Source: Notolepis coatsorum
Lineage: Eukaryota; Chordata; Actinopteri; Aulopiformes; Paralepididae
DNA: 64,000 nucleotides
Assembly (NCBI GenBank): GCA_963971535.1
Contig: OZ020592.1
Span: 58,750,324 to 58,814,323, forward strand
Direction: 5' to 3'
The notes under the pieces were generated by a model. It searched no databases and was not told where the DNA came from. It saw only the letters and a list, made by a program, of their open reading frames with translations. Shown piece by piece: positions 3,628 to 62,865 of this stretch. How positions within the stretch are numbered: position 1 is the first letter of the stretch; every line of letters starts with the position of its first letter. The position numbers and the translations under genes were made by a program.

Positions 3628-5103
3628 TATCACACCTATCACACCTCTCACACCTATCACACCTATCACACCTCTCACACTGATCCCACCTATCACACCT
3701 ATCACACCTCTCACACCTATCACACCTAGCACACCTCTCACACCTATCACACCTATCCCACCTATCACACCTATCACACCTCTCACACCTCTCACACCTA
3801 TCACACCTCTCACACCGATCCCACCTATCACCTCTCACACCTATCACACCTCTCACACCGATCCCACCTCTCACACCTATCACACCTATCACACCTATCA
3901 CACCGATCCCACCTATCACACCTATCACACCTCTCACACCTATCACACCTATCCCACATATCACACCTATCACACCTATCACACCTCTCACACCTCTCAC
4001 ACCTCTCACACCTCTCACACCGATCCCACCTCTCACACCTATCACACCTATCACACCGATCACACCTATCACACCTATCACACCTCTCACACCTATCCCA
4101 ACTCTCACACCTATCACACCTAGCACACCGATCACACCTATCACACCTCTCACACCTATCACACCTATCACACCTCTCACACCTCTCACACCTCTCACAC
4201 CTATCCCACCTATCACACCTCTCACACCTCTCACACCTATCACACCGATCCCACCTCTCACACCTATCACACCTATCACACCGATCCCACCTATCACACC
4301 TATCACACCTCTCACACCTATCCCACCTCTCACACCTATCACACCTATCACACCTATCACACCGATCCCACCTATCCCACCTATCACACCTCTCACACCT
4401 ATCACACCTATCACACCTCTCACACCTCTCACACCGATCCCACATATCACACCTCTCACACCTATCACACCTATCACACCTCTCACACCTCTCACACCTA
4501 TCACACCTATAACACCTATCACACCTCTCACACCGATCCCACCTCTCACACCTATCACACCGATCCCACCTATCACACCTCTCACACCTATCACACCTCT
4601 TACACCTATCACACCTCTCACACCTATCACACCTATAACACCTATCACACCTCTCACACCGATCCCACCTCTCACCTATCACACCGATCCCACCTATCAC
4701 ACCTATCACACCTCTCACACCTATCACACCTATCCCACCTATCAGACCTCTCACACCTATCACACCTATCCCACCTATCACACCTATCACACCGATCCCA
4801 CCTATCCCACCTATCACACCTCTCATACCTATCACACCTATCACACCTCTCACACCTATCACACCTCTCACACCGATCCCACCTATCACACCTCTCACAC
4901 CTATCACACCTCTCACACCTCTCACACCGATCCCACCTATCACACCTCTCACACATCTCACACCTATCACACCTATCACACAGATCCCACCTATCACACC
5001 TCTCACACCTATCACACCTATCACACCTATCACACCGATCCCACCTATCACACCTATCACACCTCTCACACCTATCACACCTCTCACACCTATCACACCT
5101 CTA
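3628..5103. repeat. 9-bp minisatellite, inverted orientation, array B1 (about 1.5 kb)
   Basis: Units TATCACACC and CTCACACC, the reverse complement of array A. Overlapping minus-strand frames of 357 and 437 codons lie here, but they only translate the repeat (Gly-Val-Ile/Arg or Arg-Cys-Asp units) and are not genes. Together with arrays A1 and A2 it forms the inverted flanks of the LINE-bearing core at 664-3600. Confidence 0.95.
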
Positions 5104-5728: not shown

Positions 5729-6200
5729 TCCCGCAGTGCAACGTGACCCAAATCAGCCAATGCCTGCAGTGCAACACTCAAATTCAGCCATTGGGTGGGA
5801 CGATCACGTGACCCAAATCAGCCAATGGAAGCGTGCAGGACCTCAGCCTGCGGGACCCCAGCCTGCTGATGCTGTGGTTCTGCAGCTGCATGCTTCTCGC
5901 TCAGCCATCCCTCGTCTGGGTTTCGCGTCACGTCGCAGGACGGCCTTGCCAAGCGCGTTGCGTGCATGTTGTCCGACTTGCTCTGGAAATCTGACGAGGC
6001 GAGCCGCGGAAATCTCACAGGAACGAGCCACGCACAGCCTTCAGAGCGAGGCGCCACAGTACCTCTCACCCGAGTGACCCGACTGCTCCACGCAAATCCA
6101 TGATGGGAAACAACTTGCTATCGTTGCGCAAAGCGCCCATTGGCTCAGAAAAGTTGTCACCGCCCACAAGAGGAAGTTATGAGACGTTTGATTGATTGAT
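5729..6200. repeat. Outer arm of composite element and adjoining foldback sequence
   Basis: 5729-5880 matches 32292-32352 plus 33463-33560 of the second copy: gtgacccaaatcagccaatg repeats, then cctcagcctgcgggac units. From about 5880 to 6200 the sequence is the inverse of 19810-20060 and of 26160-26360, including the motif ggctcagaaaagttgtca and ttatgagacgtttgattgat. Short frames here are not conserved genes. Confidence 0.7.
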
Positions 6201-13779: not shown

Positions 13780-14719
13780 TTAGTCGACTAATCGAAAAAA
13801 TAATCGACAGATTAGTCGACTACCAAATTAGTCATTAGTTGCAGCCCTACAGTATGCATACATTGTGCAGGATGCAACAGGCAAAGACTGCTGCGCTGAT
13901 GTTTCCTGTATCCTTCATATGCAATCATCTAAGCCTCCTGAACTTGTTCTTGAGGATGCCGAAGGAATGCTCGATCACCACACAAGCAGTATTCAACCTC
14001 TTGTTATACCGCCTCTGCCTAGCAGTCAAATGCCCGTTGTCCCTGTAGGGCTGCATGAGCTGGGGCATTAGTGGGTACGCAGAGTCCCCAATGATGTGCA
14101 TCCCATCCGGCACCAGGGACTGGGGATCTGCTTCTAGCAGCCAGCCAACCTCCGACACCCGAAATGCTCTCGCATCATGCCAGCTACCAGGATTGCCCAC
14201 ACTGATGTGACGGAACCGCCGCTGGCTGTCACAGTACCCAGTGAGTATGACTGAATAGAACCCTTTCCTATTCAGGTACACCACTGGGTTCTCGCAGTGT
14301 GGCCTCACAATGGGGATGTGGCAGCCATCCGCGGCACAGACTGTGTTGGGGAAACCTGCTGCGCTGAATCCTAGCTAGGAGGACTGTAGGGCTTCCCCTG
14401 TGGGCCAGGAAACGTGATGGCCCATATGTGCATTCACTAGTGCACAGAAGTCGTGCAGGTGTTTGCACAGGGTGGATTTTGTTGTGTTGAATCGGTCTGC
14501 AACACCCCTATAGGACTCTTGATTAGACAGAGTCCACAGACATGCAAGCACACTGCGATTCAGTGGCAACTTTGTGTGCAGTGTTTTATTATACACAGGG
14601 CCAAGGGCAGTCATCAGCTCCTGAATGGTTGAGGAAAGAGCAAAAGGGAGTGAATGGTGTAGCAGCATAGGCTTTAATACGGTAATAGCCAACATAGAAT
14701 GTCTGCTGATTGTATACAT

Positions 14720-21238: not shown

Positions 21239-24158
21239 TTAACTACGTGTGCACACAAAGTCCTTTAGGTGCCCTGGAGGGCCCCTCACTCTAGGTGGGT
21301 ATCGTCTCTCAGTCATTAAGCTCTGTGGCTGCCGCTGCTGTTGGTTTTGAGTCACTTTAGCGACATGTGTCTCCACTACATCTGTTTCACGGTTCACCCA
21401 TGGTGTCGTCTCAGGTAAGTCGGTTTCAGAATCTGGAGCCACCAGGGTTGGGGAGAGGTGAGACCTGTTTCTCCGTAGGGTACCTCCTCCGGGTGTCTCC
21501 ACAAGGTAAGACCTGGGTGTGCCTGCCATAGACACCACTGTGCCTCGCTCCTTAGTGTCTCTGATCCACACATGTTCACCCGGTTGGATAAGGGGCAACT
21601 GATGTGTTCTGTGTCTTCGATCGTAGTTCAGTCGCTGTTTTTGTCTGTAAACTTGTTCTGTCCTTCTTAGTTTCTCTGTGTCGGCACATCTTGGTTTTAG
21701 TTGGGACGGGATGACAGGAACAAGAGTTCTGATTTTTCTCCCCATCAGAAGCTCCGTGGGACTGAATCCGTTTGCGAGTGGGGCGTTGCGGTAGGCCATT
21801 AGAGCAAGGTAGGGATCACTTGACTTTTTGATCAGACTTTTTATAGTTCTCACTGCGCGCTCTGCCTCCCCATTGCTCTGTGGAAAGCGAGGACTGGATG
21901 TCACATGGCTGAAACACCAGTCCTGTGAGAACTTGCGGAAACACTCTGATGCATACTGTGGTCCATTGTCCGTGCGGACCTCCTCTGGGATCCCCGTGAC
22001 GAGCAAATATTAACTTGAAATGCTGGATCATTGCCTCTGATGTTGTGGATGTCAGTTTGGCGACTTCCACATATCTGGAATAATAGTCAACGATGACTAG
22101 GTAGTGTTGGTTGTTGTTTTGAAACAGATCTGCTCCGACAGTGGACCATGGTCTTGTTGGGAATTCTGTTGACATCATCGGTTCTCTTTTGTTCACCCTC
22201 TCACGTGCACATGTGTCACAGTTCTCTACCATCTTTTGCAATTCCTTGCTAAGGCCTGGCCACCATACTGACCTTTTAGCCCTCTCCCTACATTTTGTTA
22301 TCCCGAGATGTCCTTCGTGCAGCTTTTCCAGTATGTCAGCTCTGAGTGCTGCTGGGATGACTATTCTCTCCCCCTTTAGCATCAGTCCATTTTGCACCGT
22401 GAACTCTCCTGAGAGTGGCAGGTAGGGCTGAATCACGCGTTCTATGGAGAACTTATCTGGCCATCCTTCCACACAGTACCTCTTAAGCTGGCATACTATG
22501 GGGTCATTGTCTTGGTGTGTTTGGATCTCTCTGAGCCTTTTCTCTGTAGCGGGCAGGCTTGTCATGATGGAGTCGACATACAGGTTTATTTCTTCCTCTT
22601 GTAGCCCGTCTGCTGTGCTGCTTACAGGAGCTCTGGAGAGCACATCTGCTGTCGCAATGTTTTTGCCCGCCACATGTGATATGGTGTAGGAGAACCTCAT
22701 CAGTCTCATCCTAAGCCGTTGTATGCGTGGTGGAAGTTGGTCTAGGGTCTTCGAGCCTAGCAGAGGGACCAGAGGTTTGTGGTCTGTCTCAATGTGGAAG
22801 TCTTTCCCAATGAGGAATTCAGCAAACTTCTCACAGGCCCATGTGGAGGCCAGTGCCTCCTTTTCTATTTGAGCGTATCTCTGTTCGGTGTTGGTGAGGG
22901 CTCGCGAGGCATACGCCACCGGTTTCCATGCTTGTTCAGCTTGCCTCTGGAGAAGGACTGCACCCAGCCCATATGACGAGGCATCAGCGGAGACCAAGGT
23001 TTCTGCGTTTGGGTCGTACAGTGTCAATCCAGGGGGTGTAGTCAGTTGTTTTTTTATATTAACGAAGGCCTCCTGTTGTGGGGGCCCCCATGCCCACATG
23101 TTTGACCTCTTTAGCAGATCTCTGAGTGGAAGGGTCTTCTCCGCCAGGTGAGGCAGAAACTTTCCAAGATGATTTACCATCCCCAGAAATCCTCTCACTT
23201 CTCTGACGTTCCTCGGTTCCTTCATGGCTTTCACTGCGTACACTTTGTCTGGGTCTGCGCTCACCCCTGACCCCTCGATGACCTGTCCCAGGTACTTGAT
23301 TTTGCTCTTGGAGAACTCGCATTTTCCAGCATTGAGCGTGACCCCTGCCTCCTGGAGTCGTGTCAGTGCTGTGTGTAACCTCTCATCATGCTGTTGTTGT
23401 GTGGCTCCCCAGATGAGCACATCATCCATCTGACACACAACGCCTTCCAGACCCTCTAGGATTTGTGTCATGCGCTTCTGAAAGTGCTCTGGTGCAGACG
23501 ATATTCCAAAGCACATGCGGTTATACCGATACCGTCCAAATGGTGTCATGAAGGTGGTTAATAGCGATGACTCATTTGACAGTGGAATCTGCCAGAAGCC
23601 TGAGTTTGCATCCAGCTTAGAGAACACTCTGGCTCCAGCGAGCTGTCCCAGTGTGTGTTCAACTGAGGGAAGTGGATGCCTCTCCCTCTTGACAGATTTG
23701 TTCAGTTCAGTGAGGTCTGTGCATATTCTCACCTTTCCCGTAGCCTGCTTGGGAACCACCACCATTGGTGCACACCAGTCCGTTGGCTGTTCCACCTTTG
23801 AAATTACTCTCTGTTGCTCCATGTGTTTTAGTTCTTCCTTTACTTTTGGTAGGAGGGGGAGGGATATCCGCCTAGGAGTGGAGACAGAAAAGGGCTTAGC
23901 CCCTGGCCTTAATACAATATTGTATTCTCCCTGCATTTTCCCCAGACCATTGAAGAGCTTTGGGAATTCCTGTTTCACATCTTCTTTTGAGACTAAAGCT
24001 AGTGATGGCATCCAGCCTTGCCACCAAGTGCAGTGCTATGGCAGCTGACCGGCCTAGCAATGGTACGGCCAGTTCCTCCACAACGTAAACATCCTGTTTT
24101 GTGATCCTCTCACCTTTCTTGAGTGTGGCTGTGAATTTCCCCTTTACATTCAGTGGCC
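21239..24158 (-). pseudogene. Ty3/gypsy Pol: reverse transcriptase, RNase H, integrase
   Basis: Minus-strand pol, protein order running right to left. The RT has PTDWCAPMVVVPK, VRICTDLTELN, FSKLDANSGFWQIPL and MTPFGRYRYNRMCFGISSAP, with a catalytic QMDD box in place of the usual Y/FxDD. The RNase H has VSADASSYGLGAVLLQ and TDHKPLVPLLG. The integrase has an HHCC finger (HEGHLGITKCRERA, CDTCAR) and the core VRTDNGPQYASE and PQSNGEAERAVRTIKSLIK. An integrase frameshift near 22000 splits the frame into 24011-21816 and 22006-21239, so the copy is inactive. The C-terminal basic tail ends at TAG 21239. The protease is displaced to 25550-25745 by a DNA transposon. Confidence 0.93.
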
Positions 24159-27611: not shown

Positions 27612-28149
27612 ATAGAGGTGTGATAGGTGTGATAGGTGTGAGAGGTGTGAGAGGTGTGATAGGTGTGATAGGTGTGATAGGTGTGATAGGTGTGAGAGGT
27701 GTGATAGGTGTGATAGGTGTGATAGGTGGGATCGGTGTGATAGGTGTGAGAGGTGGGATAGGTGTGAGAGGTGTGAGAGGTGTGATAGGTGTGATAGGTG
27801 GGATCGGTGTGATAGGTGTGAGAGGTGTGATAGGTGGGATCGGTGTGAGAGGTGTGATAGGTGTGAGAGGTGTGATAGGTGGGATAGGTGTGATCGGTGT
27901 GATAGGTGTGAGAGGTGTGAGAGGTGTGATAGGTGTGAGAGGTGTGAGAGGTGGGATCGGTGTGAGAGGTGTGATAGGTGTGATAGGTGTGATAGGTGTG
28001 AGAGGTGTGATAGGTGTGAGAGGTGTGATGGGTGTGAGAGGTGTGATAGGTGGGATCGGTGTGGGAGGTGTGATAGGTGGGATAGGTGTGATAGGTGTGA
28101 GAGGTGTGATAGGTGTGAGAGGTGTGATATGTGTGAGAGGTGTGATAGC
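27612..28149. repeat. 9-bp minisatellite, copy 2 left array
   Basis: Same GGTGTGATA/GGTGTGAGA unit as 12-663. It ends abruptly inside LINE ORF1 at the junction gtgatagctggtctgaca, whereas in copy 1 the LINE continues to 664. Confidence 0.95.
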
Positions 28150-31172: not shown

Positions 31173-31792
31173 TCACCGATCCCACCTATCACACCTATCA
31201 CACCTATCACACCTCTCACACCTATCACACCTCTCACACCTATCACACCTCTCACACCTCTCACACCTATCACACATCTCACACCTCTCACACCTATCAC
31301 ACCTATCACACCTCTCACACCTCTCACACCTATCACACCTCTCACACTTCTCACACCTATCACACCTCTCACACCGATCCCACCTCTCACACCTATCACA
31401 CCTATCACACCTCTCACACCGATCCCACCTATCCCACCTATCACACATCTCACACCTATCACACCTCTCACACATATCACACCTCTCACACCTATCACAC
31501 CTCTCACACCTCTCACACCTATCACACCTATCACACCTATCCCACCTATCCCACCTCTCACACCGATCCCACCTATCACACCTATCACACCTCTCACACC
31601 TATCACACCTCTCACACCTCTCACACCTATCACACCTATCAAACCTATCACACCTATCACACCTATCACACCTCTCACACCAACCCCACCTATCACACCT
31701 ATCACACCTATCACACCTCTCACACCTCTCACACCTCTCACACCTATCACACCTCTCACACCTATCACACCTATCACACCTATCACACCTCT
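31173..31792. repeat. 9-bp minisatellite, copy 2 right array (inverted)
   Basis: TATCACACC/CTCACACC units, inverse of 27612-28149. Frames of 240 and 380 codons across it are artefacts. Confidence 0.95.
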
Positions 31793-35224: not shown

Positions 35225-35706
35225 GGGCGGCTAGGTGGTGTAGTGGGCAAGGCACTCGCCACCAGTGTGGAGACGCTAGGATTCGCGTGTTCGAATCCAG
35301 CTCTCCACATTGTTTTCAGTTTAGCTGGTCGTCCGCAGTAATACACATTGGCCGTATTACGGGGAGGGAAAACTGAAGGGTGGGGATCGAACGTTGTGAA
35401 CAAGCGACTCCTACAAGTCGGTTGGTGCGCCTGCGCAGTAGAATCAGGAAGTGTCGGGGGCAGCGTGAGCCTCCCACGCGTTACTCCTCGACACTGAGAG
35501 ATCGAGCTGCGCAGGTGAAAAGATGCGACTGCTGTTACCTCAAGTACCGGAGGGGACTTGTGCTATGTATGACTTAGTCCACATTGCAGCCGGCTTGTGG
35601 GAGGCAAGAAACAGCGTTCGTGACAGGGGAGGATTGAATTGGATGATACGAAATTGGGATGGGAGAAAATATAGAAAAATGGGAGAAAAAGTGGATCAAA
35701 AAAAAA
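35225..35706 (+). mobile_element. tRNA-headed SINE, copy A
   Basis: The head has tRNA promoter boxes (tggtgtagtgggcaaggc and gtgttcgaatcca). A conserved body (gcagcgtgagcctcccacgc, gcgttactcctcg) and an A-rich end follow. It is flanked by the 14-bp duplication GGTTAGGCATTGTT at 35211-35224 and 35707-35720. Copies at 40144-40618 and 63191-63651 define the family. Short Met-started frames in it are not genes. Confidence 0.9.
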
Positions 35707-36585: not shown

Positions 36586-39500
36586 ATGGAAGTTATTGCC
36601 CAAACCTTGGCTACAGTCGGCACATTCATTGCTGGCATTTTTAACCGTTTCACCGACATGTTTCTTACACGACCGCTGAAGGCAACTCTCAGTCATCTAG
36701 AGGAGGCTGACCTGAAAACCCTGAAAGGAGGTAATTATTGTATAAGGAGCGCGTGCTACTTCCCATTAACTGACAGATTGCCGTCACGTGGCTGGCATGG
36801 TTGTACTGGAATAATGATGCATTTGATTGGAATGTGTGTTCGAATGTGCGCTCGGTCTAGCTTCCTCCGTTGCCAAATGCCCTTTCGCCCCGTTTCTCCA
36901 CACAGAGACTTTCAAGGCCAAAGCTCTATGGGAGAAATCTGGAGCTGTAATCATGGCAGTAAGAAGGCCTGGATGATTTTTGTGCAGAGAGGTAAATTAA
37001 TCAGACATCTTTCCCATCAGTGTGATGCAAACCTCACGAGTTATAAATGGGAAATCACCAGCTACAGTCTTTTCTCAGGGCATCTGGTTTATGAGTGACT
37101 CATATTTATAGTAAACATGACGTGTTTTACCATACAATATGGCACAATGCCACAGCTCATTGGCCATGGTTGTCATTTAATCAGAATCACCTGCTATTTG
37201 ATTACAATCAGAACCACCTGTTTGCGACCAGTATTTAAAAAAAATCTTTACTATAATCGTATTGCCTATAATGTATGTCTTCTACTATTGGTACATGTCC
37301 ATACATGTACCCCCCCCCCCCCCCATGCTGCTATGACGCCTGCATTTCTCCAAGGGGATCATCAATAAAGGAATATCTAGCCTGCACTCTAATACTAATG
37401 AATACAATTCCATTGTATAGGAATGGAGGACCCTGATGTAAACAAGACGAACGTTTTTTCTGGTCTGAATCCTCTTAGCAGTTGTATGTATTGAGCTGTA
37501 CTGTATTGTACCCATTCTGAAATATGCTAATAAAGTTATCAATCAATCAATTGTAGTGATCAGAATATTCCTCTGGCATGGCATTTCTGTTACATATTGA
37601 AATAGTATTTTAGGTCACTAGTGCATAGGGGTGGATCATAACGGTATATGGTATAAACGGTATGAATTTGCACTACGGTATGGATTTTGATTATACCTTC
37701 ATACCTTGTGACCGGTAGACTAGAGCAGCTAGTCACAGCAGTAGCAATGACGTTAATGTTACTTGACGATTCACTCAACGTTTGCAGTGGTCGTTGCATA
37801 GTGTTTAATTGTACTGAGTTTTTCTCCACTTGCTCACGGACCTTGTCATATAGTTTGGGCATTTCAATTTGGCTAAGGAGGCTGAGAGGAGACTTGCTTT
37901 AGAAACAGGCTAACGTTAGCCATTTTAAGATAAATTAATATACCGCGATATATACCGTTACCGTCTATGCTTCAAATTATACCGTGATATACATTTTAGA
38001 CCATACCGTCCAGCCCTAGTGCACAATTTTATTTAGATTTCTCAATCTTAAAAGGGCACTCTGCAACCTAAGATCTCAGCGGCAATGTACAATGCAAAAT
38101 TACTTCACGAGTTTGATGGTGTTGGACAACTGCAGTTACACAATGCTTAATTTACAGTTGACATTCTTGGATGAAAATAATAAAATGTGAAATGTGTTTT
38201 CCTCCAGGAGGCCGCTGAGCTGTCCTCTCTGAGGCCCCAGCTGGAGGAGCTGGGGGTCCCTCTGTTCGCTGTAGTGAAGGAGGACATTGGCACAGAGATC
38301 CAGAACTTCAGACCCTACTTCACTGGAGAGATCTTCCTGGATGAGAAGGTGCGTCTTGTTCACTAGCCTGACACGTCAGACCCATGGCATGCAAGCTTCT
38401 CCCTCGAGCTTCTCTTCCTTGCATAGTTCTCACATGTCAGGCCACTTGTCTACATGTGATAAATGTACTGTTTCAGCAATCTTTCCTAGCCACACTAGTC
38501 ATCGTTTTGCAATATATCTACAAATCATCTTGCCAGTCAATGACTGAACCAGTACCAACACAATTAGTCAGAATACCCTATGCATTCAGTCATTCAGTGT
38601 ATGTAGGATTCACTTAAAGGAACACGCCAACATTATGATAAATGCGCTTACCGTCTTCTCCAAAGTCGGACAAGAAGATGGATACCGATTTTCTCTCATG
38701 CATTCAGTAGAAAGCTGCAGGCTCGTCTAGCTTCAGGGGCGCGAGAAGTCCGCGGGGAGTGGGGGTGCTGAGATATCGATAGTTTTTGATTAATTATTTT
38801 TTTTATATAAATTTTTTTTTATATAAAATATATATATTATATAATTATACTTGTAGTTGTATTGTCTGCGAGACATCGCCACCACGCAACACGTCAAAAT
38901 GCTCGCTATCTGCAAACAGCTCCACTGTCTGTCAGTCATAACCAACACTCTCGTTCACTAGGATACTATGATGAATTGAAAATGGGGGACGGTCCCTGAT
39001 GTAAACAAGACGAAAGTCTTTCTCTGGTCTGCATCCCCTTAACAATTGTATGTATTGAGCTGTACTGTACTGTACCCATTCTGCAATCTGTTAATAAACT
39101 TTTCAATCAAACTTTTCAATCAAAACAGCTGCCCAACTCCGCGCTCTGAGCGTTCTGATGCACACATCACAGCCCAGCTTACCCCATCTGGCTGTTGCGC
39201 CCTCTGTGTCACTGTCGCAACAACAATAGCTGCAGGAGCGATAATAATAATAACACACACATTACCTATTCCGAAGACGGTAAAACACAGAAGGTGGTCT
39301 TGCGTTCAGGAGTGGTGGAAATAAACTCCTTCATGACAACATGAATGTCCAGTGAGTCCAGAATATCCGGATGCATATGCTGCAGCAAGTCCAGGTTATT
39401 ATTATTAAAGAAATCAGATGAGTCATTTATTTTCTGAGACACAAGTAAACACACTCTCCACTTCAGACAGTCCTCCCTCTCTGCAATTCGTTCCCGCATA

Positions 39501-42500
39501 CAACATCGCCGACAGATATATTCCTTTACTGCGAATTGTCCCAAAACAAAAACTATTCCAGGCCGCTATTTATTTTACCAACGGATTTCCAGTTCCGCGT
39601 TGACGCTTCCAGGCCGCGTCTATTCGAATCCCAACCGGTTCATGAGTGGCTACACGCTGTTTTAATAACACTGCATTATCGAGACAGCGCCCCTATGGAT
39701 CTGGCAATGAATTCCAAGAATAGGGTAAATCTGCAGTTCCGTTCCGCTCTATGACATTGAGTAGCGTCGGTATTCCAATGGAATAAAGGCCAAAACCACC
39801 TTGCAGTTGCAGTTACCCTCCCCGCCAGCAGGGGGTGCTGGAGCACCCGTCGCACCCCCACTTCTCGCGTCCTTGTCTAGCTTAGCACAAATTAATGGAA
39901 GTGGATACGGATCAGCTAGCCTGTTGGCCAAAAACACCTCCCAGAGTTTTAAGCTTCCATATCCGCTTCCATTCATTTGAGCTAAGCTAGGCTAGCTTTC
40001 TACGGAACGCACAGAGGAAATTGGTATCTATCTTCTTGTCTGACGACAGTGGAGAAGACGGTAAGCGTATTTATCATAATGTTGGCGTGTTCCTTTAAGT
40101 GATTCCTACAAACACTGAATGACTTAATGCATAGGGTATTCAGGGCGGCTACGTGGCGTAGTGGGCAAGGCGCTCGCCACGAATGCGGAGACGCTGGGCT
40201 CGCCTGTTCGAGCCCAGCGCTCCACATTGCTTTCAGTTTAGCTGGTCGTTCATACTAATACACATTGGCCATATTAGGGGGTGGGAAACTGATGGGTGGG
40301 GATCGGGCGTTGTGGACAGTGACTCCTACAGGTCGGTTGGTGCGCCTGCGCAGTAGAATCAGGAAGTGTCGGGGGCAGCGTGAGCCTCCCACGCGTTACT
40401 CCTCGCCACTGAGAGATCGAGCTGCGCAGGTGAAAAGATGCGACTGCTGTTACCTCAAGTACCGGAGGGGACTTGTGCTATGTATGACTTAGTCCACATT
40501 GCAGCCGGCTTGTGGGAGGCAAGAAACAGCGTTCGTGACAGGGGAGGGTTGAATTGGATGATACGAAATTGGGATGGGAGAAAATATAGAAAATGGGAGA
40601 AAAAGTGGATCAAAAAAAATGCATAGGGTATTCAGATTAATGTGTTGGTAGTGGTTCAGTCATTGACTGGTAAGATGTGTAGATATATTGCAAAACGATG
40701 ACTAGTGTAGTTAGGAAATATAGCTGAAACAGTACATTTATCACATGTAGACACATTTCCCATAATGTTGCCATGTTCCTTAACTCCTTGCTGAAACACG
40801 GACACCCTCTGTTTGTTTGGTTGCAGAGACGTTTTTATGGCCCCCGTGAGAGAAAGATGGGCCTGTCGGCCTTCCTACGTGTGGGTGTGTGGATGAGTGG
40901 CCTGAGGGCCTTCAAGAACGGCTTTGTGGGAAATATCTTCGGGGAGGGCTTTGTCCTGGGTGGGGTGTTTGTCATCGGACCAGGACGGCAGGTACAACTT
41001 CAACACAGTCCTGGGAATTATTATGAATACATTTTCGCACAAATCGTCTGTGGTATTATGGATTGTATATCAAACCAGCACTCTCAGTTTCAATGTTTTT
41101 AATGGCAGCCTGAATAAATAGCAGACATGTTTCAGACAATGTCCTTCTTCAGTGATATGGCTAGCAATGGAAATACAATCAAGATGGTAGTTAAATACAC
41201 CTGGCAGGTAATTACATGACATGACACGGCAGGAAATGACATCACAACGCAGGTGTTCCGGTGCAATGTGACCAAAGGGATGACCTATCAAAGTAGAGTC
41301 CAATCATAAATTATACATATATATAGATATATCTATATCTAACAATCTATATTATAAACAATACAAAACAAAACAAAATTACAAAATTACCAGAAACTTG
41401 ATATTATAACATATAACATGCCCATTAATTTCTAGGGCTAATTGAGCCCCTTTACATATTTAATTAAATAGTTTCAAATTATACATTGGGCATCCTTGTG
41501 AAACATGCCTCTTGTTTAGCAACAAACAATTTTTTTTTAATAATAAAACCAGAAATAACACTGTAGGTGTAAGGAGGTTAGAGGAAACAGGTTAAAACGT
41601 TCTCTTCATTCATTCCTCTAGGTTCGATGCAATTGAACAGGTGGATATAATAACATTCACGTTGCAACAGCAACTTGTGTCTGTCTCCACCTCGCGCTGG
41701 CCTGAGTACTAACTCTAGTCCCATATATTTGAGATCGTTGACGGTATGTTTACACTTAGAGAAATGTCGAGCTACCGACGACTTGACATCTGAATTTCTC
41801 ACAGCACATTTGTGTTCACTGATTCGTGATTTAAAGGCTCTCGTTGTTTTGCCCACATAAGAAAAATTACAAGGACATTTTAGCAAATACACCAGATTAG
41901 ACGAATTACACGTAATCCGTCCTTTGACTGGTATATTTTTCCCCGTTTTAGGATGTGTGAAAAATTTATCTTTAATCATGCCCTGGCACTGTACACAGGA
42001 TTGGCAGGGAAAATTCCCATCTGGGATATTGGACATAAAATGAGAAGGTTTCTTTAAGGGCAAATCAGTTTTGACTAGGAGATTAGATAAATTCGCTTGT
42101 CTCTTATAAAAATAGTTAGGCGAATGCTGAAACGCTGTCCCTATAAGAGGGTCGGACTGCAGAATATGCCAATGTTTATTGACAATACTCCGTGTGTCTC
42201 TCGTGATAGGGCTGTAAGTAGACACAAAAGATACTTTGTCTGTTTTATCTTCTTTCTTTCTGAGGGTGAACAACGTGGCCCTGTCGATATGTTTGGTTTT
42301 GTTGAGGGCTTTGAGTGTCAAATCGGCACTGTAGCCTCTCTCGTGGAAACTGCCACGGAGGACCTCTGCTTGTGACATAAATCTATCGTCAGTATCACAT
42401 ATTCTCTTATAACGAAGTATTTGGCTATAAGGAAGACTGTTCTTCAAGGCTGGGGTGTGATAACTGGAATAATGCAAGAACGAGTTATGGTCTGTCTCCT

Positions 42501-45500
42501 TTTTAAAAACCTCTGTGTAATGAGATGCCATTAGGGGCTTTCTTGATCAGAACATTGAGCAAGGGTAAATTATGCATATCAAACTTCAATGTAAACTTTA
42601 TCGTTCTTCTACAGGTGTTCAGGTACTCAAGGAAGGCAAAAAGATCCAATGCTGAACCAGACCAAATAAAAAACAGATATGCGCTATATTGACGATCTGT
42701 TTTTTATTTGGTCTGGTTCAGCATTGGATCTTTTTGCCTTCCTTGAGTACCTGAACACCTGTAGAAGAACGATAAAGTTTACATTGAAGTTTGATATGCA
42801 TAATTTACCCTTGCTCGATGTTCTGATCAAGAAAGCCCCTAATGGCATCTCATTACACAGAGGTTTTTAAAAAGGAGACAGACCGTAACTCGTTCTTGCA
42901 TTATTCCAGTTATCACACCCCAGCCTTGAAGAACAGTCTTCCTTATAGCCAAATACTTCGTTATAAGAGAATATGTGATACTGACGATAGATTTATGTCA
43001 CAAGCAGAGGTCCTCCGTGGCAGTTTCCACGAGAGAGGCTACAGTGCCGATTTGACACTCAAAGCCCTGAACAAAACCAAACATATCGACAGGGCCACGT
43101 TGTTCACCCTCAGAAAGAAAGAAGATAAAACAGACAAAGTATCTTTTGTGTCTACTTACAGCCCTATCACGAGAGACACAGGAAGGGGAAGGGGAAGGGG
43201 AAGGGGAACTATGTGAGAATGCTGTTCATCGACTACAGCTCAGCATTCAATACCATAGTCCCCTCCAAACTCATAGCCAAGCTCAGGGACCTGGGCTTGA
43301 ACTATGACCTGTGCCAGTGGGTCCTGGACTTCCTGACGGGCAGACCCCAGGTGGTAAGAGCCGGCAACTGCACCTCCTCATCCATCACGCTCAACATAGG
43401 GGCCCCCCAGGGCTGTGTTCTGAGCCCCCTCCTCTACTCCCTGTACACACATGACTGCGTAGCACAGCGGAACAACAACACCATCATCAAATTTGCTGAT
43501 GACACAGTAGTGGTGGGCCTGATCTCTGCCAACGACGAAAGGGCCTACCTGGAAGAGGTAGAGAACCTGTCACAGTGGTGTCAGGAGAACTGCCTCTCCC
43601 TGAACGTCAGCAAAACAAAAGAGATGATTGTGGACTTCAGGAGGTCGGGGGTCAAGGACTACAGCCCCCTCAGCATCGACGGGGCACCAGTTGAGAGAGT
43701 GAACAGTTTCAAGTACCTCGGAGCCCACATATCCGAGGACTTGACATGGACCACACACATTGACAGTGTTGTGAAGAAGGCACGACAACGCCTCTACTTC
43801 CTCAGGCGCCTAAGGAAGTTCCAAGTCAGTCAGAAGATCCTTAGGAACTTCTACTCATGTACAATAGAGAGCATCCTGACCGGCAACATCACCTCCTGGT
43901 TTGGGAATAGCACTGCACAAGACCGTAGCAGACTACAAAGAGTGACACGTTCAGCCGAACGCACAATTAGAGGGGGGCTTCCCACCCTCCAGAACATTTA
44001 CAACAAGCGGTGCAAGGGGAAGGCTAAGAGAATTATTAAGGACTCGAGCCACCCGAACAACTGCCTCTTTGAACTGCTGCCGTCAGGCAAGCGATACCGG
44101 AGTCTTATGGCGAGCACAGAAAGACTCAGAAGGAGCTTCTATCCCCAGGCCATCAGGCTGCTAAACGAACAATAATCGCTAAACGAACAATAATCACTAT
44201 GCAACAACCATCAAATGCACACAGCACACACACCCACACGCACACACACACTCACTCAAACAAACAACACACTGCAGCACCCACTCTCCACACTTTAGAT
44301 CACACAAACACACTTACACTTTATATTTATTGATAAAGGATTTGCACTACAACTCGTACACCTACTGTGAATTGTACCTAAACTGCACCTCGTCCATTTA
44401 TGCCTTGCACTATATAGTATTGTATATTAGTACACTGCACAGTATTGTATATTGTATGGTAACTACGTCTACGAACATTGTACATATGTCTAAACTGAAC
44501 ACTGTGACCTCTTTTTTTTTTTTCTTCTAATTTTTACTATGTTTTTATTTCATACTTATCTTGTCATGCACAGTCTCTGGAGCGCAACAGTAAGAAGCAT
44601 TTTGTACAAAAGTATTCTGTACTTCTGTATGACAACTATTAAAGAAACTTGAAACTTGAGTATTGTCAATAAACATTGGCATATTCTGCAGTCCGACCCT
44701 CTTATAGGGACAGCGTTTCAGCATTCGCCTAACTATTTTTATAAGAGACAAGTGAATTTATCTAATCTCCTAGTCAAAACTGATTTGCCCTTAAAGAAAC
44801 CTTCTCATTTTATGTCTAATATCCCAGATGGGAATTTTCCCTGCCAATCCTGTGTACAGTGCCAGGGCATGATTAAAGATAAATTTTTCGCACATCCTAA
44901 AACGGGGAAAAATATACCAGTCAAAGGACGGATTACGTGTAATTCGTCTAATCTGGTGTATTTGCTAAAATGTCCTTGTAATTTTTCTTATGTGGGCAAA
45001 ACAACGAGAGCCTTTAAATCACGAATCAGTGAACACAAATGTGCTGTGAGAAATTCAGATGTCAAGTCGTCGGTAGCTCGACATTTCTCTAAGTGTAAAC
45101 ATACCGTCAACGATCTCAAATATATGGGACTAGAGTTAGTACTCAGTCCAGCGCGAGGTGGAGACAGACACAAGTTGCTGTTGCAACGTGAATGTTATTA
45201 TATCCACCTGTTCAATTGCATCGAACCTAGAGGAATGAATGAAGAGAACGTTTTAACCTGTTTCCTCTAACCTCCTTACACCTACAGTGTTATTTCTGGT
45301 TTTATTATTAAAAAAAATTTGTTTGTTGCTAAACAAGAGGCATGTTTCACAAGGATGCCCAATGTATAATTTGAAACTATTTAATTAAATATGTAAAGGG
45401 GCTCAATTAGCCCTAGAAATGAATGGGCATGTTATATGTTATAATATCAAGTTTCTGGTAATTTTGTAATTTTGTTTTTTTTTGTATTGTTTATAATATA

Positions 45501-46060
45501 GATTGTTAGATATAGATATATCTATATATATGTATAATTTATGATTGGACTCTACTTTGATAGGTCATCCCTTTGGTCACATTGCACCGGCACACCTGCG
45601 TTGTGATGTCATTTCCTGCCGTGTCATGTCATGTAATTACCTGCCAGGTGTATTTAACTACCATCTTGATTGTATTTCCATTGCTAGCCATATCACTGAA
45701 GAAGGACATTGTCTGAAACATGTCTGCTATTTATTCAGGCTGCCATTAAAAACATTGAAACAGAGTGCTGGTCCGGCTACCCTGCTTTTTGATATACAGA
45801 ACTTTCTGGGATTGCAGCACCCAGTGTGAGAACTTGTGAGCGCGGTCTAACTTGACTATATGGATTGTGAAATGTTTTTACTAGGAATATGTTGGCTAAA
45901 TTAGTCATGGTGGCACCCTTTGTATAATTTATTTTCTTTCTTCCAGGGCATACTGCTGGAACACAGGGAGGTTGAGTTTGGGGATAAGGTCAACATCCTT
46001 GATGTCCTCAAAGTTGTCAGGAAAATACCCCAAGAACTCAGGATAATAGAGAAGAAATAA
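36586..46060 (+). CDS. prxl2a: Peroxiredoxin-like 2A / selenoprotein U1 (five coding exons)
   Basis: A thioredoxin-fold redox protein of the PRXL2A (FAM213A, SELENOU1) family. Exons: 36586-36730, 36906-36991, 38208-38348, 40827-40991, 45947-46060. All introns are GT...AG and the phases join exactly, giving 216 residues (the human protein is about 229). Order: hydrophobic N-terminal segment ([12 protein letters not shown], about 11-22), [20 protein letters not shown] (51-70), Gly-Sec-Phe-Leu-Cys (71-75), [49 protein letters not shown], and [14 protein letters not shown] near the C-terminus. The codon for residue 72 is TGA, where mammals have the first Cys of CxxC. Family members act as antioxidants. 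The start is the first Met upstream of the conserved block; exon 4 to 5 spans a 5-kb intron full of transposons. The orthologue letter (1a/1b) cannot be set. Confidence 0.95.
36974..36976 (+). other. prxl2a: Selenocysteine codon (TGA, residue 72)
   Basis: The frame reads AGA AGG CCT GGA TGA TTT TTG TGC AGA, then the exon 2 end, so TGA precedes FLC to form UxxC. Exon 2 sequence on both sides matches the family without a gap, and the splice phase is kept. A nonsense mutation is less likely, because the position is the known Sec/Cys exchange site and a SECIS lies in the 3' UTR. Confidence 0.93.
37140..37556 (+). mobile_element. SINE-like element with LINE tail in intron 2
   Basis: Same head as 15241-15510 inverted (cacctgctatttgattacaa, cacctgtttgcgaccagtat). 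It carries a C run, then ggaccctgatgtaaacaaga and a divergent cccattctgaaatatgctaa tail ending in CAAT repeats. Confidence 0.7.
37626..38015. mobile_element. hAT-type MITE in intron 2
   Basis: Flanked by a perfect 8-bp duplication CTAGTGCA (37618-37625 and 38016-38023). The ends are taggggtggatcataacggt and, inverted, ggctggacggtatgg. Internal ggtat/ataccg motifs are inverted across the element. 390 bp, no coding capacity. Confidence 0.85.
38985..39125 (+). repeat. LINE 3' tail fragment
   Basis: Reads ccctgatgtaaacaagacga, tttctctggtctgcatcccc, ttaacaattgtatgtattga, cccattctgcaatctgttaa and a CAAT-like end. Similar fragments lie at 58065-58196 (+), 18848-18925 (+), 15249-15370 (-) and 54716-54790 (-, divergent). 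Confidence 0.85.
40144..40618 (+). mobile_element. tRNA-headed SINE, copy B (intron 3)
   Basis: About 95 percent like copy A by eye. It is flanked by the 17-bp duplication ATGCATAGGGTATTCAG (ends at 40143; repeats at 40619-40635). It is inserted in the right arm of the intron-3 foldback, so it is younger than that element. Confidence 0.92.
41578..42531 (-). pseudogene. Penelope-like element C-terminal ORF with GIY-YIG endonuclease (left arm)
   Basis: 317 codons. Penelope-like elements encode a reverse transcriptase followed by a GIY-YIG nuclease that nicks the target. Visible here: the post-RT region ([24 protein letters not shown]); a Cys-rich linker ([11 protein letters not shown]); and the GIY-YIG core [19 protein letters not shown], with [10 protein letters not shown] and the downstream basic helix. 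The RT YIDD-containing region lies in another frame upstream (only about 50 codons are preserved), so the element is 5'-truncated and frameshifted near 42530. Neptune-type assignment is likely but not proven. Confidence 0.85.
43180..44660 (+). mobile_element. 5'-truncated L2-like LINE inserted in the Penelope arm
   Basis: It begins after a GGAAGGGG repeat and ends with gaaactt direct repeats. The interrupted host sequence is known from the left arm (agagacacacggagtattgt at about 42180). The 3' UTR of about 480 bp is the same as the fragment at 254-474. Target duplication is unclear. Confidence 0.85.
43213..44175 (+). pseudogene. L2-like reverse transcriptase (C-terminal two thirds)
   Basis: 320 uninterrupted codons. 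RT motif [12 protein letters not shown], motif B region [16 protein letters not shown], catalytic FADDTVVVG, the thumb motif FKYLGAHIS, and the C-terminal [13 protein letters not shown] with [10 protein letters not shown]. The endonuclease and the N-terminal part of RT are absent, as expected for a 5'-truncated LINE copy. The frame is intact, so the insertion is fairly young, but no function is expected. Confidence 0.9.
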
Positions 46061-46230
46061 CATCTTAACTAAAGAAAGTACATTTTGTCTGAATGCAAAA
46101 CGATGACAAAAAAAACTCACATTTGGTAAAGTTGACTGAATATCTTATAGTTGCTGTTTGGTGAAGTGGTCTCATTGGTGTCCTCGGATGTTTTGTCTGC
46201 TGATGGGTGCATGAATGGCGAGCGCTCTGG

Positions 46231-46289
46231 GTGTGTTAATGATGGTCTGTTTCTAAATACTGAGGGAGCAGACTTGATGCTTAACACTC
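46231..46289 (+). promoter_or_regulatory. prxl2a: SECIS element (selenocysteine insertion) in the 3' UTR
   Basis: Helix 1 GTGTTA (46233-46238) pairs with TAACAC (46282-46287). The non-Watson-Crick quartet is ATGA (46239-46242) opposite TGAT (46275-46278). Helix 2 has 11 pairs, 46244-46254 with 46264-46274, several of them G-U. The apical loop (46255-46263) starts with the conserved AA. It lies 170 bp after the stop codon and before the polyadenylation signal. It recruits SBP2 and the Sec elongation factor to decode UGA at residue 72. Confidence 0.92.
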
Positions 46290-46357
46290 TGTTTTCCTTG
46301 TTACCATGGACTCATGGCAGACCCGCCATCTCAAGAACCTAGACCTTCACTTTGAAC

Positions 46358-46363
46358 AATAAA
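46358..46363 (+). terminator. prxl2a: Polyadenylation signal AATAAA
   Basis: AATAAA 70 bp downstream of the SECIS, followed by a T/G-rich stretch (tgtggtggaatgtcttgttt). It probably sets the mRNA 3' end near 46380. Confidence 0.75.
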
Positions 46364-50050: not shown

Positions 50051-51101
50051 GCATGGTGAATCAAGTGGTGGGGTTGTGACCTCCTCTTTATTTTCTACAG
50101 AATAGAAGGACGTTTCCACTGTTCCTGTTTTGAGAGCTGCGATTGGCCAAATTCCTCTCCTTACATCACTTTTAGTGCCTGCCTACTCTTCCACCAAAGA
50201 AGGGTCTATCTGGGTTGATTGCAGATGGATGGGGACATATTTTGATGTCGGACATGAACTAAAGCTGAGTGAGGAACACAGGACCTTCTCAACTCTTCTC
50301 AGACCCTGGACATCTATGGCAGAAAGTTGGTATTCATTTTCAAATAACCCAATTTTGTTTTAGAATGTAAGCTGTTTTAATTCATGCTCAACTAAGTACT
50401 GTTTCTGATAAAGGTTATACAGTAGGACATTAAATATAGAAATGTATTTAATTCACAGGATAAGTTCCTTGAGATGTGGCATCATGTAACAAAAACTAAC
50501 AGTACAGACAGAGACAATTGATGACTAAACCGCAGCAACAATGTCAACAAGACAAAACGATAGGTTATGTAGATAACCTAGTTATATTAGTATTGGCTGA
50601 GCGTCCCGCTCTGAGCATTATGAGATACCCCTTATCTCCTATGATACCTATTGTATCCAACGAAACAACTACATGCACCCCACCTGTATGGGGCCCCGCC
50701 CCTATAGTGGCATAGCCCATATAACCGTGACTCTGGTCACCAAACACCCTTCCTCGCCAAATCCCGTCCCAGGAAAAGATCCCTCAAGAGGGAACTCAGG
50801 GCCGCGCAGAGCGGGACGCTCAGCCAATACTAATATAACTAGGTTATCTACATATATATATCGTTATATATCGTATTTGCTTTCGCGTCCCGCTCTGAGC
50901 CTTATGAGATATGGGGAAGAGCGGACGCGAGACCCGACAAATGTACCCCCTGAGGACCCGTAAGCCCACATCAAGGGGTGTGGGGAGCCCTGTCACCCCA
51001 TCCTTCCTAATGAAGGGGGGGCGCAGTCAACTCCACCTGAATGCGAACAAGAGGGAACCAGAACCCCTTGAACACACCGTACAGGCGGAACCACGTGTGA
51101 C

Positions 51102-62722: not shown

Positions 62723-62865
62723 TGTTTGGTCTCTGGGTCTCGGGGTGGTGGCTGCAGCGGTGTCTGCTCTGGTCCTCCTGGCCAACACTGACCTATTACT
62801 GACCAAGCCCGTGCCATGCTCTCCTCAACAGCTGGAGAGCGCTGACCTCAACACGACCACTGGAG
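62723..62865 (+). CDS. Putative N-terminal exon of a second PRXL2A/SELENOU1-like gene
   Basis: In one frame the sequence reads VWSLGLGVVAAAVSALVLLA, then NTDLLLTKPV, then QQLESADLNTTTG. It has the same pattern as PRXL2A N-termini: hydrophobic segment, NTD, LxKP, LE-ADL. It ends GGA G|gt at exactly the donor phase of exon 1 at 36730. A candidate acceptor (gctcctcag) precedes it at 62722; no in-frame ATG is near, so the start would be in an upstream exon or lost. No exon 2 is found before 64000. It could be a tandem paralogue continuing past the window, or an isolated relic. Confidence 0.55.

Follow-up and report, generated by a model that had tools for sequence, protein, structure and literature searches.

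The window, the whole 64,000-nucleotide stretch of Notolepis coatsorum DNA that was analysed, contains a SELENOU1 coding sequence in five forward-strand exons, interrupted by one in-frame TGA and followed by a candidate SECIS element. Its features are as follows.

36586..36730, + strand: coding exon 1, with the ATG (tblastn; donor GAG/GTAATT)
36906..36991, + strand: coding exon 2, with the putative Sec codon (donor GAG/GTAAAT)
36974..36976, + strand: in-frame TGA, predicted selenocysteine at residue 72 (motif RRPG-U-FLC)
38208..38348, + strand: coding exon 3 (exon joins and aligned proteins)
40827..40991, + strand: coding exon 4 (exon joins and aligned proteins)
45947..46060, + strand: coding part of exon 5, terminating at TAA 46058-46060
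46230..46288, + strand: predicted SECIS element with no extra apical helix (Rfam SECIS_1, fold and descriptor)
46358..46363, + strand: AATAAA polyadenylation signal (from the sequence)

The coding sequence comprises 651 nt and specifies 216 residues followed by TAA. Every intron has GT..AG borders, the phases after exons 1–4 are 1, 0, 0 and 0, and the sole internal stop in the joined exons is the TGA at 36974-36976, residue 72. No frameshift, second internal stop or broken splice site was found across the five exons. Exon joining confirmed the five exons, their phases and the position of the TGA as given in an earlier note on this DNA. That note had counted skipping of exon 2 among the likely gene-finder errors; such a join leaves no open reading frame, as the frame shifts and stops follow, and it was rejected.

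Residues 81–187 of the predicted protein, downstream of the TGA, match Pfam AhpC-TSA_2 (PF13911; 65.2 bits, cut-off 27), and residues 40–104, which span it, match AhpC-TSA (PF00578; 29.2 bits, cut-off 26). Searching 5.8 billion proteins yielded 497 matches at E <= 1e-3, of which the best 120 were used for naming and for site counts. The named sequences in the best 120 of the 497 are mostly peroxiredoxin-like 2A or FAM213A, from fish and tetrapods, and the names PRXL2B, PRXL2C and PGFS occur in none of these 120. The CxxC or UxxC that follows RRPG in family members is found here as RRPG-TGA-FLC at residue 72. On sequence grounds, the protein is a member of the PRXL2A/SELENOU1 family; selenoprotein U1 is a protein of antioxidant type.

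The 120 sequences were divided by hand into tetrapod and fish classes. All 69 sequences classed as tetrapod have Cys at the residue-72 site, where it opens the CxxC motif; this upholds the earlier observation that the TGA stands in place of this Cys of mammals. On either side of the TGA, the window protein reads VRRPG and FLCRE, as tetrapod sequences most often do. Among the 51 sequences classed as fish, 25 lack exactly the 11 residues VRRPG.FLCRE, four show RRPG-FLC with one residue missing, five have Cys at the site (three Sinocyclocheilus, one Cyprinus and one Coregonus) and 17 deviate in other ways: exons are joined irregularly, residues are substituted or the sequence starts only past the site. 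Neither U nor X occurs in any of the best 120 of the 497 relatives, so Sec is not directly visible in any of them, and the database may drop such letters. As far as protein sequences alone can tell, the fish sequences thus evade the Sec codon in several ways, as would be expected if the TGA is shared.

A tree was made from 52 sequences, the window protein and 51 of the best 120, with a midpoint root and bootstrap support that had not settled. The nearest neighbour of the window protein is a Myripristis sequence. The window protein sits within a fish-only group of 36 sequences, which includes long branches for Labeo and Coregonus, and falls outside a group of 26 fish sequences that are mainly percomorphs by name. 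The remaining 16 sequences of the tree are tetrapods, the three Sinocyclocheilus and the Cyprinus sequences, single Oryzias, Poecilia and Kryptolebias sequences, and Albula, Anguilla, Conger and Megalops. Because Oryzias melastigma has one sequence on either side, the fish SELENOU1 groups in the tree were taken to be paralogues. Over exons 3–5, identity to the window protein is 86% for the Myripristis sequence, 74–83% for 36 of the 45 fish sequences in the tree and 61–67% for the other eight; for the six tetrapod sequences of the tree it is 59–67%. This similarity of exons 3–5 across fish indicates that the sequence downstream of the TGA is kept as protein.

The predicted SECIS element begins 170 nt beyond the stop codon, and its quartet starts 616 nt downstream of the TGA in the mRNA. 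It combines an ATGA/TGAT quartet, an 11-pair helix and an apical loop that opens AAA, with no further helix; an element of this architecture is type I. Rfam SECIS_1 was matched over its full length at 34.5 bits, where the gathering score is 35; the E value was 2.7e-5 for a search of 401 bases and 4.3e-3 for the 64-kb window (both over 4227 families). Correspondingly, an Rfam scan of the whole window at gathering scores gave no match anywhere, SECIS included. Other sub-threshold Rfam matches, for example to microRNA families at 42606-42767 on a palindrome in intron 4, were taken as chance or repeat effects. The 59-nt element alone folds at -20.1 kcal/mol, compared with a shuffle mean of -9.9 (z = -4.21; 0 of 200 shuffles as good), and with flanks (82 nt) the z value is -2.20, with seven of 200 shuffles as good. 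A descriptor of our own (quartet, at least 10 pairs, AA), which was written after the site had been seen, matched a single place in the two strands of the window taken together and gave three hits in total in 60 simulated 64-kb single strands, a chance expectation of about 0.1 per window. The count with this descriptor at 8 or more pairs was discarded, because window and simulations had been counted differently, by fits and by positions respectively. The SECIS fold that the earlier note had described in the 3′ UTR, with its quartet, 11-pair helix and AA loop, was therefore recovered, at an Rfam score 0.5 bit below gathering but with E-value and fold in its favour.

As the family assignment, the place of the Sec codon (where CxxC has its first Cys), the predicted SECIS of the 3′ UTR and the conservation of coding sequence after the TGA all agree, the locus is very probably a selenoprotein-producing fish SELENOU1 (PRXL2A) gene, as first proposed from the letters of the DNA; from these features we infer transcription, Sec insertion and redox activity. 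It is proposed that the five-exon mRNA would retain UGA as codon 72, and that the SECIS in its 3′ UTR would cause this UGA to be read as Sec through SBP2, eEFSec and tRNA-Sec, the usual Sec-insertion machinery. UGA is a stop codon by default and Sec insertion is often inefficient, so translation might instead stop at the TGA to yield a 71-residue peptide; given that exons 3–5 are kept as protein, this outcome is hardly credible. A recent pseudogene or Cys-to-stop mutation, with no Sec decoding, would fit a TGA that is one base away from TGT or TGC and a SECIS slightly below the Rfam cut-off. Such an origin is exceedingly improbable, as the five exons are otherwise intact in stops, frame and splice sites, the SECIS is correctly placed, the several ways in which fish sequences evade the codon point indirectly to a shared TGA, and Sec forms have been published in fish (PMC3316567, excerpt).

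Exon 2 also contains an internal GT at which the Sec codon could be removed.

36959..36991, + strand: 33 nt (VRRPGUFLCRE) that would be missing from the mRNA should GT 36959 act as donor, with the join to exon 3 in frame

Use of this donor would bypass the TGA and produce a 205-residue protein without U and C, the same omission as in 25 of the 51 fish sequences. With an approximate donor matrix, the internal donor (GCA/GTAAGA) scored 0.88; this exceeds the 0.43 of the normal exon 4 donor and the scores of 91% of the GTs in the window, but is clearly below the 4.18 of the exon 2 donor with which it competes. The codons at stake retain family residues, a SECIS is present and both redox residues would go. 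Moreover, the omission of the Sec part of an exon from automatic gene models is a documented artefact, and the mis-annotation of vertebrate selenoprotein genes was already published in 2026 (PMC12822975, excerpt). The 11-residue omission in fish sequences was read as an artefact of this type, and a gene that bypasses its TGA is considered very unlikely. The expectation in the earlier note that a standard gene finder would fail on this gene holds in general, but the form seen most often in the fish sequences is one in which exon 2 loses its final 11 codons rather than dropping out whole. A further idea is that the internal donor is conserved in fish as a genuine site of alternative splicing, such that one gene would give both the UxxC protein and an in-frame 205-residue form without redox residues, perhaps switched by selenium supply; this is speculative and improbable. 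In the open-licence literature, as judged by titles and the starts of abstracts, no report was found of such an internal donor or of a tandem SELENOU1 pair.

For the selenoprotein reading, structural comparison bears on what Sec72 would do. In a sequence comparison with solved structures, the protein matched prostamide/prostaglandin F synthase (PGFS; 9us9, E 1.8e-16), in which residue 72, with C as a stand-in, falls on residue 44. In entry 9usa two cysteines are mutated, and residue 44 is one of them. An AlphaFold2 model was made for a Cys-type cyprinid relative, P0047 (33 aligned sequences; mean pLDDT 74.4, low at the N-terminus). In this model, CxxC lies at 74 and 77, between a strand (64–69) and a helix (75–85), and the nearest solved fold is that of human PGFS. 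Human PGFS (9us9/9usa) has a related CxxC fold, as in the SELENOU1 family of the window, but shows only 27–31% identity in the fold comparison with P0047, carries Cys at the site and represents another subfamily, SelU3 (PMC3473315, excerpt). Tetrapod PRXL2A (FAM213A, PAMM, adiporedoxin) has the family and the CxxC site in common with the window gene, with Cys where the latter has a Sec codon. The CXXC of mammalian PRXL2A (Adrx/PAMM) has been reported as required for redox activity (PMC5150245, excerpt). Because of the residue match to PGFS, the P0047 model and this report, the predicted product is most likely a UxxC redox protein. In such a product, Sec72 and Cys75 would act as a UxxC redox pair where a helix begins in a thioredoxin/peroxiredoxin-like fold, the position that mammalian PRXL2A gives to its redox CxxC.

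A palindrome in intron 4 (41083-45765) has two-piece arms, each about 1.6 kb long, formed by inverted repeats of 1108 nt (41083-42190 / 44658-45765) and 491 nt (42188-42678 / 42695-43185), each 99% complementary; a large potential hairpin thus stands between exon 4 and the SECIS exon. A reverse transcriptase frame (71.1 bits) is inserted in one arm, between the arm pieces. An arm frame matches GIY-YIG at 21.0 bits, below the cut-off of 22.6, and the opposite-strand frame of the arm has no Pfam match. We take the palindrome to be Penelope-like sequence. Intron 3 contains a SINE-like insert (40128-40635), flanked by a 16-nt repeat, TGCATAGGGTATTCAG, identified by eye, and a similar stretch lies near 35500-35700. 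This insert breaks the right arm of another pair of inverted repeats (38447-38668 / 40044-40753). Elsewhere in the window, LTR-retrotransposon coding sequence with reverse transcriptase, RNase H and integrase zinc-binding domains lies at 21239-24011 (- strand), and a DDE_Tnp_4 transposase fragment at 13925-14308 (- strand; 84.2 bits). Arrays of a 9-bp minisatellite of the AGGTGTGAT type occur in both orientations at 12-659, 3628-5100, 27616-28148 and 31174-31790, and those at 3628-5100 and 31174-31790 are each followed immediately by tandem repeats of 80–83 bp.

One further exon of SELENOU1 type was found 16.7 kb downstream of the main gene, on the same strand.

62724..62865, + strand: putative exon 1 of a second SELENOU1-type gene (tblastn, local alignment), the rest of which would lie past the window end

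Its donor codon and phase are identical to those of exon 1 of the main gene, and it contains no in-frame ATG (62724-62865). The top tblastn value, to a Megalops sequence, was E 5.4e-5. Local alignment scores were 126–130 against four Sinocyclocheilus and Cyprinus sequences, 90 to 111 against the other tetrapod-side sequences compared, 61 against exon 1 of the main gene and 49–58 against three fish sequences of the main gene's group, compared with a maximum of 48 in a shuffle control (300 shuffles, six sequences). Further candidate exons at 13976-14326, 5821-5946, 50058-50321 and four other places were rejected at E 0.017 or worse, that at 50058-50321 also containing an in-frame stop, which leaves 62724-62865 as the only convincing extra SELENOU1 exon match in the window. 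From these alignments, the second exon 1 appears to be cyprinid/tetrapod-like, and two paralogue types appear to stand in tandem.

Bony-fish SelU1 proteins with Sec were published by 2012 at the latest (Mariotti et al. 2012; PMC3316567, excerpt), in line with the earlier note's remark that such members of the family are known. The family and its use of Sec in fish are therefore already known, and the gene described here is a further case, ordinary in kind. Like the published SelU1a, SelU1b and SelU1c, it is a Sec-type SelU1 of a bony fish with paralogues; it differs in that the window copy groups with fish alone, separately from the sequences that cluster with tetrapods, and has a cyprinid/tetrapod-like exon 1 downstream. 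In PMC3316567, SelU1c is put down "probably" to whole-genome duplication and SelU1b to a duplication in Percomorpha, and the word 'tandem' is used three times, for SelW2 and GPx.

With this locus, a complete SELENOU1 of Sec type becomes available from a fish that falls outside the mainly percomorph group in the tree, and it illustrates how many database proteins come to lack the SELENOU1 active site. A tandem arrangement of two deep SELENOU1 types of fish is suggested by the second exon 1. If these neighbours correspond to one of the SelU1 paralogue pairs, an older local duplication would better explain at least one of them.
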